From positions 2,320,501 to 2,384,500 of the forward strand of contig NZ_JAQGPL010000001.1 of assembly GCF_028826105.1 (NCBI RefSeq): 64,000 nucleotides of DNA, in the 5' to 3' direction. Positions 37,253-43,861 of the stretch are shown here, piece by piece (the first letter of the stretch is position 1; each line of letters starts with the position of its first letter). The translations under genes were made by a program, and so were the position numbers. The notes below the pieces were generated by a model. It saw only the letters and a program-made list of their open reading frames with translations. It did not search any database and was not told the origin of the DNA. This DNA is from Paenibacillus humicola. GTDB lineage: Bacteria > Bacillota > Bacilli > Paenibacillales > Paenibacillaceae.

Positions 37253-37336
37253 ATGGCTATGATTTTGCTTCGGTTCGGCGACCGGCGGCTTAAGCGGATC
37301 GTTGCCCATCGGCCTTGCTTCTTGCGCACCCTATAG
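37253..37336 (+). CDS. Leader peptide of the ABC exporter operon, 27 aa
   Basis: A short open frame, with GAAAGGGG upstream of ATG 37253, encodes MAMILLRFGDRRLKRIVAH and then RPCFLRTL. It is rich in Arg and contains RRLKR, which includes the Arg-Leu-Lys form of the +X+ motif known to arrest ribosomes in the presence of macrolides or ketolides. A terminator lies 32 nt after its stop, followed by the two exporter genes. B. subtilis bmrCD is preceded by a leader peptide (BmrB) with this arrangement, and I infer the same type of transcription attenuation. The peptide itself is not homologous in any way I can show. Confidence 0.55.
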   Translation: MAMILLRFGDRRLKRIVAHRPCFLRTL

Positions 37337-37368: not shown

Positions 37369-37409
37369 AAGGAGACTTCGAGCCCATGCGGCCCGGAGCC
37401 TCCTTTTTT
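37369..37409 (+). terminator. Attenuator terminator of the exporter operon
   Basis: AAGGAG (37369-37374) and downstream bases pair with CTCCTT (37400-37405), followed by a T-run. An alternative pairing is possible: CTTCTTG (37318-37324, inside the leader peptide) with CAAGGAG (37368-37374), which would remove the left arm of the terminator. Confidence 0.75.
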
Positions 37410-37452: not shown

Positions 37453-39201
37453 ATGAATGTATTGTTACGGCTGGTCAAATATTTGCGGCCGAGCGCCAAA
37501 TGGGTCGTCCTGTCGACGCTGCTGCTCATGCTGGGTACCGTCGTCGATTTGATCGCTCCCTGGCTGCTGCGGGAAATTTTCGATAAAGGCATTCAGCAGG
37601 GAAGCATGGCCGTTGTCCTGACGTACGTGTTTCTGCTCGCGGGCGTTCAGGTCGTCAAAAGCATCGGGATGTTCTGGCAGGGCCGCTCGCAGGAGCTTGT
37701 CGGGCAGAACGTCGTGTTCACCCTGCGCAAGCAGCTGTACGACCATCTGCAGCGGCTGTCATTCAGCTACTACGACAAGGCGCAGACCGGACAGCTGATG
37801 TCCCGGATGACGGGCGATATCGAGGCGGTCAAAAATTTCATCGGCTTCGGCGCGATGATGATGTTCATGGGCGTGCTGACGTTCGCCGGCACGATCGGGT
37901 TTATGCTGGCCATGCAGTGGCAGGTCACCCTGATCAGCATGGTGACCATTCCGCCGCTCATGCTGGCGCTGTGGAGCTTCAACCGGAAGGTCGGGCCGGC
38001 CTGGGGGCAGATTCGCGAGCAGATGGGCCGGTTAACCACGACGCTTCAGGAGAACATATCCGGCATCCGCGTCGTCAAAGCGTTCGCGAGGGAACAGTCG
38101 GAGAAAACGAAATTTCAGGGCCGGAACGAACAAAATTTCGATACGAACATGGATCGCGCCAAAATCGAGGCGAAGGCGTTTCCGCTGATGGGCTTTTACG
38201 GCGGCCTGACGTTTCTGATCATGATCTGGCTCGGTGGCTGGTATGTGGCGAAAGGCGAAATGACGCTCGGCACGTTTATGGCGTTCCAGTGGTATACGTG
38301 GGGAATCATTTGGCCGCTCAATATGCTGGGCTGGCAAATCAATATTTTTCAGCAGGCGGTCAAGGCTGCGCCCCGCGTGTTCGAGGTGCTCGACACCCCG
38401 GTTGCCATTGCGTCGCCGTCGGCGAATGCGGCCGATCCGTCCCGGATCGCCGGCAATGTATCGTTTGAGCAGGTATCGTTCCATTTTGCCGATCAGGACC
38501 CGGACAAAGACAACGGCGTGCTCCGCGACATTACGCTGAACGTCCGGCAGGGCGAAGTCGTGGCCGTGCTCGGCGCGACAGGCTCGGGCAAAAGCAGCCT
38601 GATCGCACTGCTGTCCCGCTTCTACGACGTGTCGCGCGGCAAGCTGCGCATCGACGGCGTCGATGTGCGTGAATACGAGCTGGACGGACTCCGCCGGAAA
38701 ATCGGCATCGTGCCGCAGGAGACGTTTCTGTTCTCGGCTTCGATCCGCGACAACATCGCTTACGGCGTGCCGGACGCGACGCAGGAGCAGATCGAATGGG
38801 CGGCGCGCAAGGCGCAAATCCATACCTTCATCGAGCAGATGCCGTACGGCTACGATACGCTGATCGGAGAGCGGGGCGTAGGGCTGTCCGGCGGCCAGCG
38901 GCAGCGGGTCGCGCTTGCCCGGGCGATTCTGATGGACCCGCCGATTCTCGTCCTCGACGAAGCGACCGCCAGCGTCGATACGGCGACGGAATCCGCGATT
39001 CACGAGGCGCTGCTCGAAGTGATGAAGGGGCGCACGACGTTCATCATCGCACAGCGGCTTTCGTCCGTGCAGCGGGCCGACCGGATTGTCGTGCTGGACC
39101 GCGGACGGATCGTCCAGCAGGGGACGCATAAGGAGCTGCACGCGCAGGAAGGGTTTTTCCGGAATCTGTTCAAGCAGCAGGAAGCGGCCGCCGCGCGGTA
39201 A
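37453..39201 (+). CDS. ABC exporter half-transporter, first subunit
   Basis: A 582-residue fused permease-ATPase, exporter type I fold. Six membrane helices occupy about residues 15-310 and the ATPase the rest: Walker A LGATGSGKSSLIALLSR, Q-loop VPQETFLF, signature LSGGQRQRVALARAI, Walker B ILVLDEATASVDT. The H-loop histidine is replaced by glutamine (IIAQRLSSVQ), marking one nucleotide site as atypical. Together with the next gene it should form a heterodimeric multidrug-type exporter. Its leader carries a small peptide gene and a terminator, so expression is likely inducible by translation inhibitors. Confidence 0.93.
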   Translation: MNVLLRLVKYLRPSAKWVVLSTLLLMLGTVVDLIAPWLLREIFDKGIQQGSMAVVLTYVFLLAGVQVVKSIGMFWQGRSQELVGQNVVFTLRKQLYDHLQRLSFSYYDKAQTGQLMSRMTGDIEAVKNFIGFGAMMMFMGVLTFAGTIGFMLAMQWQVTLISMVTIPPLMLALWSFNRKVGPAWGQIREQMGRLTTTLQENISGIRVVKAFAREQSEKTKFQGRNEQNFDTNMDRAKIEAKAFPLMGFYGGLTFLIMIWLGGWYVAKGEMTLGTFMAFQWYTWGIIWPLNMLGWQINIFQQAVKAAPRVFEVLDTPVAIASPSANAADPSRIAGNVSFEQVSFHFADQDPDKDNGVLRDITLNVRQGEVVAVLGATGSGKSSLIALLSRFYDVSRGKLRIDGVDVREYELDGLRRKIGIVPQETFLFSASIRDNIAYGVPDATQEQIEWAARKAQIHTFIEQMPYGYDTLIGERGVGLSGGQRQRVALARAILMDPPILVLDEATASVDTATESAIHEALLEVMKGRTTFIIAQRLSSVQRADRIVVLDRGRIVQQGTHKELHAQEGFFRNLFKQQEAAAAR

Positions 39202-39256
39202 AAGACTGATAACTAATGGCATAAGTCATTAATGACATTAAATAAAGGAGGCGGAC

Positions 39257-41065
39257 ATGAGTCAATTCGAATGGGATTCCGACGACGAGATTGAAGAGAA
39301 GCCGTTTAACCGGACGTACATGAAAAGGCTGATGCGTTACGCGCTGCCCTACCGAAGCGTGCTGGGCTTCATTATCGCGATCGTCCTCGTCAATATGGTG
39401 CTTAGTCTGGCCGAGCCGCTGCTGCTCGGGTATATGATCGACGACGGCATCACGCCGAAGCATTTTGCCGTCATTCATTGGATCGGCGCGTCGCTGCTTG
39501 CGATCCGGCTGATCAGCTGGCTGCTCGGTTATTTTCACACGAAGATGATCAATTTTACCGGTCAGCGGATTTTGTACGATTTGCGCCAGCAGCTGTTCGA
39601 TCATTTGCAGATGCTGTCGTTCCGCTTCTTCGACGGAAGGCCGGCGGGAAAAATTATGTCCCGGATTACGAACGACACGAATGCGATCGGCGAGCTTATT
39701 AACGGCGGCCTCATTACCATTGTGATGGAGACGACGCATTTGGTCGGCATCGTCGCGATTTTGCTGTGGATGGATTGGAAGCTGGCACTGCTTTCGTTTG
39801 TGACGATGCCGCTGCTGTATTTGATCGTCGCCAAGCTGCAGCCGAAGATCGAAGGGGCTTGGACGCGCTCGCGCAAAACGATGTCGGCCATCAACGGCAA
39901 TCTGAACGAAACGATTCAGGGGATCCGCGTCATCCAGGCGTTTTCCCGCCAAAAGACGAATAACGCGAGGTTCGAGCAGCTGAACGCGAACAACAAACAA
40001 GCCTTCATGCGGGCCGTGACGCTGGAATCGACCGTTTGGCCGCTCGTCGAAATGATCGGCATGCTCGGAACCTGCATCGTTATCTGGTTCGGCGCCCGGC
40101 AGGTCATGAACGAGGCTTTTACGCTTGGTTTTATGATGGCGTTCATCAATTACCTTTGGCGCTTTTGGGGACCGCTCAGCGCCTTGTCGAAGGTGTACAG
40201 CCAGGTGCTGTCCGCCATGGCTTCGGCCGAGCGGATTTTCGAGGTTCTCGATACCGAGCCGGAAGTGAAGGACCGCTCCAACGCGCGGGAGATGAAGCCG
40301 ATTGGCGGCGAGGTCGTATTCGACAACGTGTCGTTCCGGTACGGAGCGGATAAGCCGGAGGTGCTGCGCGGCGTCAACCTGCATATTCGGCCGGGCCAGC
40401 GCGTTGCGATCGTCGGGCCGACCGGCGCAGGCAAAAGCACCATCGTCAACCTGCTGATGCGGTTTTACGACGCGACCGGCGGGCGGATTTTGATCGACGG
40501 GCAGGACGTGCGGGACGTGACGCTGTCTTCGCTGCGCCGGCAGATGGGCATCGTGCTGCAGGACTCGTTTATTTTCTCCGGCACCATCGAGGAAAATTTG
40601 CGCTACGGCAACGAGGAAGCGTCGGACGAAGCGCTGCGCGCCGCGGCCGGGCATGTCCGGATCGACCGGTTCGTTTCGCAGTTTGCGGACGGCTACGACA
40701 CACAGGTCGAGGAGCGCGGCTCAAAGCTGTCCGTCGGCCAGCGCCAGCTGCTCGCGTTCGGCCGGGTGCTGCTGTCGGATCCGCGTATTCTCATTTTGGA
40801 CGAGGCGACGTCGAGCGTCGACACGGAAACGGAGCAGCATATTCAAGAAGCGCTGCAGCATGTGCTGCACGGACGGACCGCCTTCATTATCGCGCACCGG
40901 CTGTCGACGATCCGGGATGCCGACCTGATTTTGGTCGTTCAGGACGGCCGGATTTCCGAGCAGGGCACCCACGACGAACTGATGAAGACGGACGGGCTGT
41001 ACCGCAAGCTGTATACGACGCAATTCGAAATGCAGCAGGCGCTTGCGCTGCAGACAGGCGCGTAG
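39257..41065 (+). CDS. ABC exporter half-transporter, second subunit
   Basis: A 602-residue partner of the preceding half-transporter. It has an acidic N-terminal extension (SQFEWDSDDEIEEKPFNRTY), six membrane helices, then an ATPase with Walker A VGPTGAGKSTIVNLLMR, Q-loop VLQDSFIFSG, Walker B ILILDEATSSVDTETE and a normal H-loop IIAHRLSTI. The signature reads LSVGQRQLLAF instead of LSGGQ. So each subunit carries one changed motif, as in heterodimeric exporters with one consensus and one degenerate site. The substrate is not predictable. AAAGGAGG precedes the ATG. A terminator follows. Confidence 0.93.
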   Translation: MSQFEWDSDDEIEEKPFNRTYMKRLMRYALPYRSVLGFIIAIVLVNMVLSLAEPLLLGYMIDDGITPKHFAVIHWIGASLLAIRLISWLLGYFHTKMINFTGQRILYDLRQQLFDHLQMLSFRFFDGRPAGKIMSRITNDTNAIGELINGGLITIVMETTHLVGIVAILLWMDWKLALLSFVTMPLLYLIVAKLQPKIEGAWTRSRKTMSAINGNLNETIQGIRVIQAFSRQKTNNARFEQLNANNKQAFMRAVTLESTVWPLVEMIGMLGTCIVIWFGARQVMNEAFTLGFMMAFINYLWRFWGPLSALSKVYSQVLSAMASAERIFEVLDTEPEVKDRSNAREMKPIGGEVVFDNVSFRYGADKPEVLRGVNLHIRPGQRVAIVGPTGAGKSTIVNLLMRFYDATGGRILIDGQDVRDVTLSSLRRQMGIVLQDSFIFSGTIEENLRYGNEEASDEALRAAAGHVRIDRFVSQFADGYDTQVEERGSKLSVGQRQLLAFGRVLLSDPRILILDEATSSVDTETEQHIQEALQHVLHGRTAFIIAHRLSTIRDADLILVVQDGRISEQGTHDELMKTDGLYRKLYTTQFEMQQALALQTGA

Positions 41066-41075
41066 AAGCCCTGCC

Positions 41076-41112
41076 AGCCTCCTTACCCGAATTTTGGAGT
41101 AAGGGGGCTTTT
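41076..41112 (+). terminator. Intrinsic terminator of the exporter operon
   Basis: AGCCTCCTTAC (41076-41086) pairs with GTAAGGGGGCT (41099-41109) with one G-U pair and is followed by a short T-run. Confidence 0.85.
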
Positions 41113-41156: not shown

Positions 41157-41186
41157 TTGCTTCAGATCCTCCGTCGAAGATAAAAT
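41157..41186 (+). promoter_or_regulatory. Probable promoter of the methyltransferase leader
   Basis: TTGCTT (41157-41162) and TAAAAT (41181-41186) are 18 nt apart. The predicted start is near 41193, which leaves room for a leader peptide and attenuator. Confidence 0.5.
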
Positions 41187-41237
41187 AAGGTTCGGGACTT
41201 CCGATCCCAAATCGTTTCTTGTGAGGTTGTTACGACG

Positions 41238-41270
41238 ATGAACTGCACAACTTTCGTTCGTTTAAGGTAA
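41238..41270 (+). CDS. 10-aa leader peptide ending in Arg-Leu-Arg
   Basis: ATG 41238 opens a 10-codon frame, MNCTTFVRLR, ending at TAA 41268-41270. GAGGT lies 10 nt upstream as a ribosome site. The peptide ends in RLR, the +X+ macrolide-arrest motif found in ErmD-type leader peptides. The left arm of the terminator begins 2 nt after the stop (41272), so a ribosome held at RLR would cover it. The downstream gene is an RlmA-type methyltransferase, whose Gram-positive form (RlmA-II/TlrB) acts at G748 in the macrolide site. The gene call rests on this combination, not on homology. Confidence 0.5.
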   Translation: MNCTTFVRLR

Positions 41271-41271
41271 G

Positions 41272-41341
41272 AAAAGGCACGGTATGCAGCCCCGCGTTTT
41301 TTTGTTCGTGATGCGCGGGTTTGTTTGACTGTGCCTTTTTT
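41272..41341 (+). terminator. Attenuator terminator of the methyltransferase gene
   Basis: AAAAGGCACGGT (41272-41283) pairs with ACTGTGCCTTTT (41328-41339), 12 bp with one G-U, followed by further T residues. An inner CCCGCG/CGCGGG stem (41291-41296 with 41314-41319) fills the loop. The left arm begins directly after the leader peptide stop. Confidence 0.75.
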
Positions 41342-41375
41342 CATTCACCGAAATCGAATGAAAGGGTGCATATAA

Positions 41376-42239
41376 ATGAGTAATTCGTTTTTTTTCGGCC
41401 ATGAAGGCCTGTTCCGTTGTCCGATTTGTCATGACGCCATGCGGCTGATCAGCGGCAAAAGTCTGATCTGCTCCCGCCGCCACGGCTTCGATATTGCCCG
41501 GCAGGGCTACGTCAATTTTCTTCGGCGGCCGCCCAAATCCGGATACGGCAAAAGCATGTTCGAATCGCGTGCGGCAATCGTCCGAAGCGGATTTTTCAGA
41601 CCGCTGCTGGAACGGGCCGGAAGCGAGCTGTCGCTTCTGCTGCAGGCAAGCGGGGAGCGGATAGCCATCCTCGACGCCGGCTGCGGTGAGGGCTCCCATC
41701 TGGCTTTTTTGCGGGAGGAGCTTATAAGAAAGACGGAGCGCGGCGTAATCGGGGCCGGGCTGGATATCGCGAAAGAAGGTGTGAGGATCGCCGCAAGGCA
41801 GCATCCGGATCTCGTCTGGTGCGCGGCGGATATTGCCGAGTGCCCGTTTCAAGACGGCTGTTTCGATGCGATTCTGAACATTTTGTCCCCGTCCCGCTAT
41901 GCGGAATTTCAGCGATTGCTCGTACCGGGCGGAATTGCGCTGAAAATCGTCCCCGGGAACGATTATCTCCGTCAATTGCGCGTAAAGCTATACGGCTCGT
42001 CGTTCAGAAGAACTCATCCGGGCGATTCGGCCGCCGGTCTTTTCCGCACTCGCTTCGAGCTCCTGCGGGAAGAGCGCGTCCGGTACGAGGTCAAGCTGGA
42101 CCCTTCGCTGCGGGAACATCTTTTCCGCATGACGCCTTTGTCGTGGGCGGCGCCGGAAGAGGAGGTGCAGCGCGCAATGGACTCGGTCGGCGGTGAAATT
42201 ACGGTTGATTTGACGATGCTGATTGGGAGAAAAAGGTGA
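41376..42239 (+). CDS. rlmA: RlmA-type 23S rRNA guanine-N1 methyltransferase
   Basis: A 287-residue SAM-dependent methyltransferase. A zinc-finger-like N-terminus (FRCPICHDAMRLISGKSLIC and RRHGFDIARQGYVNFL) is followed by the Rossmann core with the SAM motif ILDAGCGEGSHLAFL, acidic GLDIAKEGV and a LNILSPSRYAEFQRLLVPGG segment. This zinc-ribbon plus methyltransferase arrangement is that of RlmA, which methylates G745 (type I) or G748 (type II, TlrB, tylosin resistance) in 23S rRNA. In a Firmicute type II is expected, but the motifs do not prove it. The attenuator and RLR leader peptide precede it. Confidence 0.85.
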   Translation: MSNSFFFGHEGLFRCPICHDAMRLISGKSLICSRRHGFDIARQGYVNFLRRPPKSGYGKSMFESRAAIVRSGFFRPLLERAGSELSLLLQASGERIAILDAGCGEGSHLAFLREELIRKTERGVIGAGLDIAKEGVRIAARQHPDLVWCAADIAECPFQDGCFDAILNILSPSRYAEFQRLLVPGGIALKIVPGNDYLRQLRVKLYGSSFRRTHPGDSAAGLFRTRFELLREERVRYEVKLDPSLREHLFRMTPLSWAAPEEEVQRAMDSVGGEITVDLTMLIGRKR

Positions 42240-42339: not shown

Positions 42340-42561
42340 ATAATCAAACAGTCCGATCATGCCGATGAAGAGCATCCAACTCGGAGGCGTTACGACCGGG
42401 ATGTCCCAAGGCTCAAGCGGCCTCGAAAAGGCGTCCTCTAAGTATTCCGGCACCGCCCCGTTACCGGCGGATCGAGATGGCCGGACCTGTGCGTCCGGCA
42501 ATTTGGGTGGCACCGCGAGCGCGCTCCTCGTCCCATGGACGGATGAGGAGCGCTTATTTTT
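42340..42561 (+). promoter_or_regulatory. T-box leader of serS
   Basis: A tRNA-sensing leader. The conserved antiterminator bulge GGGTGGCACCGCGAGC is at 42505-42520 and overlaps the terminator stem that follows. Stem I begins near 42352 (TCCGA pairs with TCGGA). A TCC at about 42375 is a possible serine specifier codon but was not proven. Uncharged tRNA-Ser should favour antitermination and induce serS. Confidence 0.85.
42521..42561 (+). terminator. T-box terminator hairpin
   Basis: GCGCTCCTC (42521-42529) pairs perfectly with GAGGAGCGC (42545-42553), followed by TTATTTTTG. Confidence 0.88.
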
Positions 42562-42586: not shown

Positions 42587-43861
42587 ATGCTGGACATGAA
42601 AATGATCCGCTTGCGGGCGAAGGAAGTTCAGGAAGCCGCAATCCGGAGAAAAATTCCGTTTGACGTGAAGGAGCTGATCGCCGCTGACGACTGGCGCCGC
42701 ATGCAGATGGCGGCGGCGGAGAAGCTGCGGGAAGAGCGTAACCGGTTTGCCGCCGCCATTAGTGAGCTGTTGCGAGGCGGACGGATACGGGAAGCGGAGG
42801 AGAAGAAGAAGGAGGCTGCAGCGCTGCACGACAGGCTGGCTCTGGCAGAGACCGGGCTGAGGGACGCCCGAGAGGAGTTTGACCGGCTGATGCGGCTTGT
42901 GCCGAATTTGATATCGCCGGATACGCCGGAAGGGGATAACGACCGGGACAATGTGGAGCTGCGAACGGACGGTCAGCCGCCGCAATTTGAATTCGCCCCG
43001 AAGGATCACGTCGAGCTGGGCCGCCTGCTGGACCTGATCGATGTCGATCGCGGCGTCAAGATCGGAGGTTCGCGGCAATATGTGCTGAAAGGAAACGGTG
43101 CGCTGCTTCATCGCGCGGTCCAGCAGCTGGCGGTCGATCTGCTGCTCGAGCAAGGTTTTACGCTGCTTGAACTGCCGGCGATGACGAAGGAGGAGGCGTT
43201 TGTCGGAACCGGATTTTTTCCCGCAAGCCGCGACCAGAGCTTTGCCGTCGATGGCGAGAACCTGTTTTTGGCCGGCACGGCGGAGGTGCCGCTTGTTTCG
43301 TATTATGCCGGGGAGACGCTCGATTTAAGCCAGCCGCTGCTGCTTGCCGCCGCGGGGCCCTGCTTCCGGAGCGAGGTCGGTTCGGCAGGCCGCGACGTAC
43401 GCGGGCTGTACCGGGTACACCAATTTGCTAAGGTGGAGCAAGTCGTCCTGTGCCGCGCCGATTTGACGCTTGCGGAGGAACTGCTCGTGCGGATCACCGC
43501 TCACGCGGAACGGCTGCTGCAGCTGCTCGAGCTGCCCTACCGGGTCGTGGCGGTATGCGCCGGCGATTTGTCGGCCAAAAATTACAAGCAGTTCGACATC
43601 GAGACGTGGATGCCGAGCCGGAACGCGTATGGCGAAACGCATTCGGCATCGCTGCTGCTCGATTATCAGGCGCGGCGTTCGAATATCCGGTACTGGGACG
43701 AAAACGGTCGGCTCGCCTTCGCCTATACGCTGAACGGCACGATGGCAGCCAGCCCGCGCATCCTCATTCCGCTGCTCGAATGCCATCAGCGCGAGGACGG
43801 CACGGTTCGCATCCCGAAAGCGCTCCGGCCTTACATCCGCGGATTGGAGGAACTGAAGTAA
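42587..43861 (+). CDS. serS: Seryl-tRNA synthetase
   Basis: Charges tRNA-Ser with serine. The 424-residue length is standard. An N-terminal tRNA-binding coiled coil (REERNRFAAAISELL, REAEEKKKEAAALHDRLALAE) is followed by class II motifs: motif 1 near LHRAVQQLAVDLLLEQGFTLL, motif 2 GPCFRSEVGSAGRDVRGLYR and motif 3 TLNGTMAASPRILIPLLE. ATG 42587 has AAAAGGAG upstream. It is controlled by the T-box leader immediately upstream. The gene downstream of it is moxR, and a strong GC-rich hairpin lies between them. Confidence 0.97.
   Translation: MLDMKMIRLRAKEVQEAAIRRKIPFDVKELIAADDWRRMQMAAAEKLREERNRFAAAISELLRGGRIREAEEKKKEAAALHDRLALAETGLRDAREEFDRLMRLVPNLISPDTPEGDNDRDNVELRTDGQPPQFEFAPKDHVELGRLLDLIDVDRGVKIGGSRQYVLKGNGALLHRAVQQLAVDLLLEQGFTLLELPAMTKEEAFVGTGFFPASRDQSFAVDGENLFLAGTAEVPLVSYYAGETLDLSQPLLLAAAGPCFRSEVGSAGRDVRGLYRVHQFAKVEQVVLCRADLTLAEELLVRITAHAERLLQLLELPYRVVAVCAGDLSAKNYKQFDIETWMPSRNAYGETHSASLLLDYQARRSNIRYWDENGRLAFAYTLNGTMAASPRILIPLLECHQREDGTVRIPKALRPYIRGLEELK

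Follow-up and report, generated by a model that had tools for sequence, protein, structure and literature searches.

The window, the whole stretch of 64,000 nucleotides that was analysed, lies in a 5.9-Mb genome (G000) and contains the gene rlmA at 41376–42239 on the forward strand. Domain models identify the product as a tlrB-like 23S rRNA guanine-N1 methyltransferase of 287 residues. It scores above the cut-off of the Zn_ribbon_RlmA model and matches both NF008300 (G745) and G748-type models, in each case below their cut-offs. We infer that the enzyme may methylate G748. The region described here separates rlmA from an ABC transporter gene of the same orientation, whose last base is at 41065.

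Two boxes, TTGCTT (41157–41162) and TAAAAT (41181–41186), spaced by 18 nt on the forward strand and agreeing with consensus at 8 of 12 positions, can be recognised by eye as a weak sigma-A-like promoter. The first-pass annotation had placed a weak promoter here; the boxes stand, but a consensus promoter scan calls nothing at 41157–41186, the candidate falling under its threshold. Several relatives carry TATAAT-like boxes at this place, again as judged by eye. Transcription is predicted to start at about 41194, some 182 nt ahead of rlmA.

A ten-codon frame on the forward strand (41238–41270), with a GAGGT ribosome site about 10 nt 5′ of it, encodes the peptide MNCTTFVRLR. Its translation bears out the Arg-Leu-Arg-stop ending, an R-X-R motif, that had been annotated. 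The stop is not doubled, as TAA is followed by GAA AAG. Two bases past the stop, an intrinsic terminator begins on the same strand. Its left arm, AAAAGGCACGG (41272–41282), pairs with the right arm, CTGTGCCTTTT (41329–41339), and a T-run spans 41336–41341. The left arm starts at 41272 and the T-run is present, as had been noted, but the stem contains 11 pairs, one of them G-U, rather than 12. At the terminator apex, the sequence and fold reveal a putative pause hairpin formed by CCCGCG (41291–41296) and CGCGGG (41314–41319). Immediately 3′ of this hairpin, TTGTTT (41321–41326, forward strand) matches the motif TTNTTT, described as a NusG pause motif in PMC12288461.

A second predicted structure connects the leader with the start of rlmA. 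Part of the leader frame, CTTTCGTTCG (41251–41260), is complementary to CGAATGAAAG (41355–41364), which lies just before and extends into the rlmA ribosome site, within a Shine-Dalgarno (SD) region of sequence CGAATGAAAGGGTGCA (41355–41370). The helix is extended by TGCAC (41244–41248) pairing with GTGCA (41366–41370). In the window fold, this long-range pairing has a predicted probability of 1.0. The minimum free energy of 41190–41375 is −70.4 kcal/mol, compared with −48.0 ± 4.3 kcal/mol for 200 shuffles (z −5.26), none of which folds as well. The leader:SD pairing and the TTNTTT motif had both been overlooked in the first-pass annotation. The element (41242–41376) is nearly palindromic, and for this reason the covariance model described below also scores the minus strand, at 38.9 bits. 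A 60-residue antisense frame is listed at 41162–41344. No Rfam family reaches its gathering score anywhere in the window, and sub-threshold matches over the leader, to viral and miRNA families, were judged to be chance. Downstream, a T-box leader (42356–42538) precedes serS (42587–43861) and scores 45.6 bits (E 1.9e-8), the Rfam gathering score being 93.

The arrangement closely resembles that of B. subtilis tlrB (yxjB), for which attenuation together with ribosome stalling by tylosin at R-X-R was established experimentally by Yakhnin in 2019 (PMC6851288). According to the text of that paper, stalling, termination, pausing and induction were all demonstrated, NusG-dependent pausing is needed, G71 and G72 are required for termination, and a toeprint appears at U74. 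The paper also reports that RlmA protects B. subtilis against tylosin, and that 180 leaders are predicted ahead of tlrB homologues in Gram-positive organisms. As described in PMC6851288, the B. subtilis system and the window share a short leader of similar length that ends in R-X-R, an overlapping intrinsic terminator, a leader pairing that sequesters the SD, a NusG pause (a motif in the window) with a hairpin at the apex, and an RlmA gene. The distance from transcription start to gene is about 182 nt in the window and 177 nt in tlrB. The leaders, compared through the text of PMC6851288, differ in sequence: MNCTTFVRLR, with RLR, in the window and MIIQFIRYR, with RYR, in B. subtilis. The latter is also followed by tandem stops, which the window does not have. 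Some relatives likewise lack tandem stops, and these were therefore kept out of the definition of the type.

ErmD-type attenuation has long been known, and it had served as the model for the initial reading; the nearest system is tlrB instead. An ErmD-type element consists of an MTHSMRLR-like leader before an Erm gene, whereas the window has MNCTTFVRLR before RlmA. The ermD/ermK leader (ErmDL, MTHSMRLR..., PMC8298421), compared with the window by published description and not by DNA, does share the RLR arrest motif, macrolide stalling, and hairpins before an rRNA methyltransferase gene. It differs in the enzyme that is controlled and in that RLR occupies residues 6–8 of a longer leader, while in the window it abuts the stop. 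PMC8298421 also describes that ErmDL with an altered N terminus lost arrest at RLR. Two further B. subtilis systems are related in outline, as far as their published descriptions go. The bmrB-bmrCD operon (PMC4191407) likewise uses a leader peptide and a terminator to govern a resistance gene, but its leader has 53 residues, its terminator lies within the leader coding region, and its inducers are lincomycin, erythromycin and chloramphenicol. The vmlR leader (PMC9226507) shares NusG pausing and a combination of transcription and translation attenuation; however, arrest occurs at translation initiation of the uORF and not at R-X-R, the gene encodes an ABCF protein, and other drugs are involved. 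The same paper counts vmlR, after tlrB, as the second resistance gene in which NusG plays an essential part.

A different leader-like element is present farther upstream in the window. A 27-residue frame (37253–37336) with the ribosome site MAMILLRFGDRRLKRIVAHRPCFLRTL precedes the ABC transporter pair (37453–41065), and a terminator-like hairpin with a T-run lies between them at 37370–37409. Of 20 loci with the first ABC gene, the window's own included, 17 contain a frame in which [HY]RPxF lies close to the C terminus. The hairpin pattern AGGAGAC..GTCTCCTTTTTT occurs in 13 of the 20, and the window hairpin deviates from it in letters. The window fold of this region is unremarkable by itself (z −1.68). 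The frame and hairpin are likely a second leader-peptide attenuator, similar to bmrB in position and dissimilar in form as the latter is described in PMC4191407.

The element ahead of rlmA is very probably a macrolide attenuator of the tlrB type, and the proposal that an RlmA gene is under macrolide-responsive attenuation appears, by analogy with tlrB/yxjB (PMC6851288), to be right. The mechanism is already known from B. subtilis tlrB (2019), and the window copy is a further member whose leader has clearly diverged. Both the ability of this divergent leader to stall ribosomes and the identity of the macrolide involved are extrapolated from the characterised systems. Erythromycin or tylosin had been put forward as inducer. 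Tylosin agrees with B. subtilis tlrB; erythromycin does not, as it gave neither reporter induction nor a toeprint in the experiments described in PMC6851288.

In the proposed mechanism, ribosomes would complete the ten-codon leader when no drug is present, and the terminator (41272–41341) would form. In any RNA that escapes termination, the leader codons would base-pair with the ribosome site of rlmA. A NusG-dependent pause of RNA polymerase at TTGTTT (41321–41326) would leave time for a ribosome to engage the leader. Once a macrolide occupies the exit tunnel, this ribosome would stall, its P site on the Leu codon and its A site on the last Arg codon. In this position, its front edge would shield AAAAGG at the terminator base, and its body would shield the leader arm that takes part in SD sequestration. 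With both structures blocked, RNA polymerase would read through and rlmA would be translated. When the P-site codon is taken to begin at base 1 (41262), the GG of the terminator base (41276–41277) falls on bases 15–16, a position that fits the earlier suggestion of a stalled ribosome sitting over the left arm of the terminator. The spacing seems close to that of G71/G72 and U74 in B. subtilis, as matched through the text of PMC6851288.

The leader is widely conserved ahead of rlmA genes. A scan of genome contigs with the single RlmA protein found no relatives, and the search was repeated with an alignment (A1). A total of 138 rlmA loci were collected, which gave 116 distinct upstream regions after removal of 22 near-duplicates. 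A frame of 5–16 residues ending in +X+ is present in 71 of the 116, compared with a mean of 7 (range 2–14) in 20 rounds of dinucleotide shuffling. A stricter filter on leader and position is passed by 66, with leaders of 8–11 residues that include MIIQFIRYR, MIIQFIRLR, MIIKFIRLR and MIHYIRLR. The other 50 were excluded from the alignment as no leader in them matched the pattern, although two of them (L006 and L015) visibly have one with a shifted stop. Conservation of the leader frame in relatives had been set beforehand as a check, and its absence as grounds for abandoning the reading; with 66 of 116 distinct upstream regions carrying the frame, that refutation failed. The N-terminal half of the window leader (N, C, T, T) is unlike the I-I-[QK] of most relatives. 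A sequence profile built from the other 65 leaders, with the window left out, matches 41251–41369 with 77.4 bits (E 4.5e-23 in 64 kb).

The remaining parts of the element are conserved to different degrees among the 66 aligned leaders. The GG at the terminator base begins at base 15 from the P-site codon in 62 (the window and 61 of 65 others). In the terminator helix, 94.2% of cells are paired and 4 of 11 pairs are altered on both sides, in line with the expectation that its arms covary. In the leader:SD helix, 82.7% of cells are paired, and sliding it by 1–3 columns brings the share down to 52.1% or less. Its covariation is modest: 3 of 15 pairs are altered on both sides, and shuffles give a mean of 3.1 and reach this number in 478 of 500 cases. 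TTNTTT is found in 64 leaders, the window included. Only its N position varies freely (A 50, G 9, C 7); the five T columns each contain T in 65 or 66 of the 66. The apical hairpin is paired in 45.2% of cells, in an alignment that does not keep this hairpin in register. A conserved 5′ hairpin ahead of the leader was not established, with z below −1.5 in 23 of the 66.

An additional predicted hairpin would complicate the release of the rlmA ribosome site. At about 41334–41366 on the forward strand, CATTC...GAATGAAAG (41342–41364) is predicted to fold into a local hairpin (CATTC...GAATGAA with CC...GG) of −8.0 kcal/mol. Flanked by the terminator T-run on one side and the rlmA ribosome site on the other, the hairpin is conserved (columns 117–142 of alignment A2). 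It competes with the leader:SD helix and is predicted to cover the SD too. In an equilibrium model of the 66 leaders, masking the footprint of the stalled ribosome lowers the mean SD unpaired probability from 0.32 to 0.07; it raises the value in 10 of the 66, among which the window changes from 0.25 to 0.29. The SD remains mostly paired in the masked fold because the local hairpin takes over. In terms of this model, either the local hairpin is weak enough to permit initiation or the induced state requires an additional step. For B. subtilis tlrB, PMC6851288 states that the antiterminator was not identified.

To follow the element through genomes, a covariance model (R1) was made from the 66 leaders with the window among its rows, the 65-leader sequence profile serving as the leave-one-out test; antisense matches were excluded from all counts, and an alignment (A3) into which antisense matches had been mixed was set aside. 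R1 matches 99 of 295 genomes of the family, three of which (G007, G252 and G323) contribute nothing to the matches listed. Those matches comprise at least 109 sense copies, 80 before rlmA and 29 elsewhere. RlmA is encoded in 97 of the family genomes, at least 80 of them with an attenuator among the matches listed. Of 22 genomes in the genus, the window's own included, seven encode an RlmA match (E ≤ 1e-20), and the attenuator is present in six of the seven; the remaining one, G006, gives no attenuator match. Across the family, 17 of the 97 RlmA-bearing genomes, such as G006, G039 and G062, are without one among the matches listed. Their RlmA genes may be constitutive or differently regulated, or the attenuator may have been missed.

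The 29 other copies precede 15 erm genes, 8 genes of α/β-hydrolase macrolide esterases, 5 Mef-like genes and 1 O-methyltransferase gene (among the matches listed), as classified by mutual likeness and by NCBIfam models on exemplars. Erm models score above cut-off for two exemplars (L186 and L197) and the macrolide esterase model for L205, whose top PDB sequence match is a chain of the macrolide esterase EstT. Mef(B) gives 317 bits for L198, below its cut-off of 800. Of 398 genomes across the phylum, 10 have R1 matches, and seven matches outside the family precede 5 rlmA genes (one cut) and 2 erm genes. A second model (R2), containing all classes known at that point, matches 57 of 398 genomes of the class and 145 of 392 of the order. 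Among the fetched or listed matches, 135 R2 loci were classified as 66 rlmA plus two broken rlmA (L249 and L348), 33 erm, 16 esterase, 13 Mph-like, 2 Mef-like, 1 another MFS and 2 unclassified; loci already covered and matches in G1172, G1174, G1205, G1210 and G1211 fall outside this set. The Mph label rests on two exemplars, with Mph model matches below their cut-offs. Broken or cut frames occur at erm loci L187 and L195 and at rlmA loci L173, L235, L249, L266, L299, L316 and L348.

In sum, at least 251 copies (109 + 7 + 135) are distributed over rlmA (153), erm (50), esterase (24), mph-like (13), mef-like (7) and other genes (4). With related genomes pooled and matches as listed or fetched, a gene of one of five macrolide-resistance families lies downstream of 247 of the 251 classified copies. 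Two or more kinds of copy are found in 47 of 193 genomes with a copy (one tally of the matches listed), and G762 and G972 each carry rlmA, esterase and mph copies. Four loci were kept out of the resistance classes. In L203 (G065:C1), an attenuator with a ...CIRLR stop lies before an O-methyltransferase gene (Methyltransf_2), which may be a candidate new macrolide-related gene or may reflect a displaced attenuator. L294 (G971:C44) precedes an MFS gene that is 24% like the mef exemplar. L276 (G1091:C9) precedes what looks by eye like an ABC-2-like membrane frame, and the 3′ end of the element appears decayed. The fourth, L285, is unclassified. Attenuator-like DNA is also present on mobilizable plasmids of Bacillus and Priestia (NZ_CP127373.1, NZ_CP015327.1 and NZ_CP071469.1), before an α/β hydrolase gene in Bacillus arachidis and a putative RNA methyltransferase gene in two Priestia; a fourth match is a Klebsiella record without annotation. 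A plasmid DNA search with the window leader itself gave zero matches.

Most leaders of these copies fall into two types. I-I-x-F (I-I-[QKE]-F) or a near form is found in 125 of 132 rlmA entries, a few genomes being entered twice, and in 24 of 24 esterase entries. In contrast, [GC]-I-x-F or T-H-S is found in 42 of 48 erm, 13 of 13 mph and 7 of 7 mef-like entries. Three of the erm exceptions match the opposite type and three match neither. Leaders found ahead of mef-like genes in the attenuator family include MTHSMRLR, MTHSIRLR and MCTHSMRLR. Since the types differ between genes expected to act on 16-membered macrolides and genes expected to have a broader range, the distribution suggests that N-terminal leader residues may encode drug choice, with patterns set post hoc and related genomes pooled. 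The window leader fits neither type: it has Cys at a position taken by Cys or Gly in erm leaders, and Thr at a position that is mostly Ile. Its length of ten residues, and a Cys eight residues from the end, recall the MYCIAFIRIR leaders of erm genes rather than the I-I-[QKE]-F or near form of most rlmA and all esterase entries. The window might thus contain the same attenuator with a changed inducer, responding to 14-membered macrolides or ketolides, as expected for erm, mph and mef leaders, rather than to tylosin. We regard such a change as unlikely, if the most serious of the alternatives: Thr-Thr at the next positions fits neither leader group, the leader types were defined after the data had been seen, and the downstream enzyme is RlmA, which is protective against tylosin in B. 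subtilis as reported in PMC6851288.

The likeness of the attenuators before different resistance genes could also reflect convergence instead of shared descent, as the same geometry of ribosome and polymerase constrains all copies. A sequence profile derived from rlmA leaders only, without base pairs, recovers every erm copy (48 of 48) and every esterase copy (24 of 24) at E ≤ 1e-10, as well as 6 of 7 mef-like copies at E ≤ 1e-8, in a search space of 6 Mb. Moreover, exact stem and linker sequences, such as CTGTGCCTTTTTCATT and GAATGAATGAGGTG, recur in many attenuators across classes. The mph attenuators show the weakest likeness to this profile (18–46 bits), with 12 of 13 at 18–37 bits and one at 46, and one mef-like copy (L198) reaches just E 5e-4. 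On balance, convergence is improbable. TTNTTT is retained in 45 of 50 attenuators across classes, the exceptions being 3 erm copies, 1 esterase copy and the O-methyltransferase copy. In a rough tree of these 50, erm copies appear in three places and esterase copies lie beside some rlmA copies; the placement, from short sequences and with low support, suggests that the attenuator has been swapped between gene classes more than once.

We favour, with fair but far from full confidence, the reading that one homologous sensor, composed of a +X+ leader, TTNTTT, a terminator and SD sequestration, controls at least five unrelated macrolide-resistance families and regulates regulons of two to three genes. 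Within Bacilli and some further members of Bacillota, the families are RlmA, Erm, Mph-like, Mef-like efflux and α/β-hydrolase macrolide esterase. Among the papers listed in searches of open-licence full text (the best 7–25 of each), none describes a single attenuator common to them, and the main text of a 2025 survey of macrolide esterases (PMC12704417) contains neither 'leader' nor 'attenuat'. The extension to five families looks new; the mechanism at the window does not.

The spread of the element over erm, mph-like, mef-like and esterase genes also provides independent support for macrolide sensing. A true attenuator that answers another signal, such as arginine shortage, a lincosamide, a phenicol or general translation stress, would draw on the terminal Arg codons, which could sense Arg-tRNA, and on the unusual N terminus of the leader. 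It is very unlikely, as macrolides are the common theme of the Erm, Mph-like, Mef-like and macrolide-esterase genes behind related attenuators, and B. subtilis tlrB responds to tylosin through R-X-R stalling (PMC6851288). Least credible of all is that the hairpin, with its T-run, merely terminates the ABC transporter operon ending at 41065 on the same strand and that the short frame arose by chance, since a separate 10-bp hairpin with four T lies just past the ABC stop (41077–41112, by eye) and the leader, its spacing, the pause motif and the SD pairing are conserved before rlmA in other genomes. The hairpin at 41077–41112 is missing from the terminator scan because its loop exceeds the loop limit of the scan.

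The tlrB-type macrolide attenuator of the window takes a known mechanism to a clearly diverged leader, and the wider family to which it belongs matters more. The alignments obtained here are a step towards the systematic TTNTTT search suggested in PMC9226507, and the natural leader variants offer a comparative set for the nascent-peptide residues that select the drug. If the five-family reading is true, the attenuator could be used as a probe for unrecognised resistance genes, for example the O-methyltransferase of L203, and a single genome would place two or three resistance genes under copies of the same sensor. The wider family also predicts that the erm, mph-like, mef-like and esterase genes of soil Bacillota would be induced by macrolides through a common sensor that involves NusG pausing.
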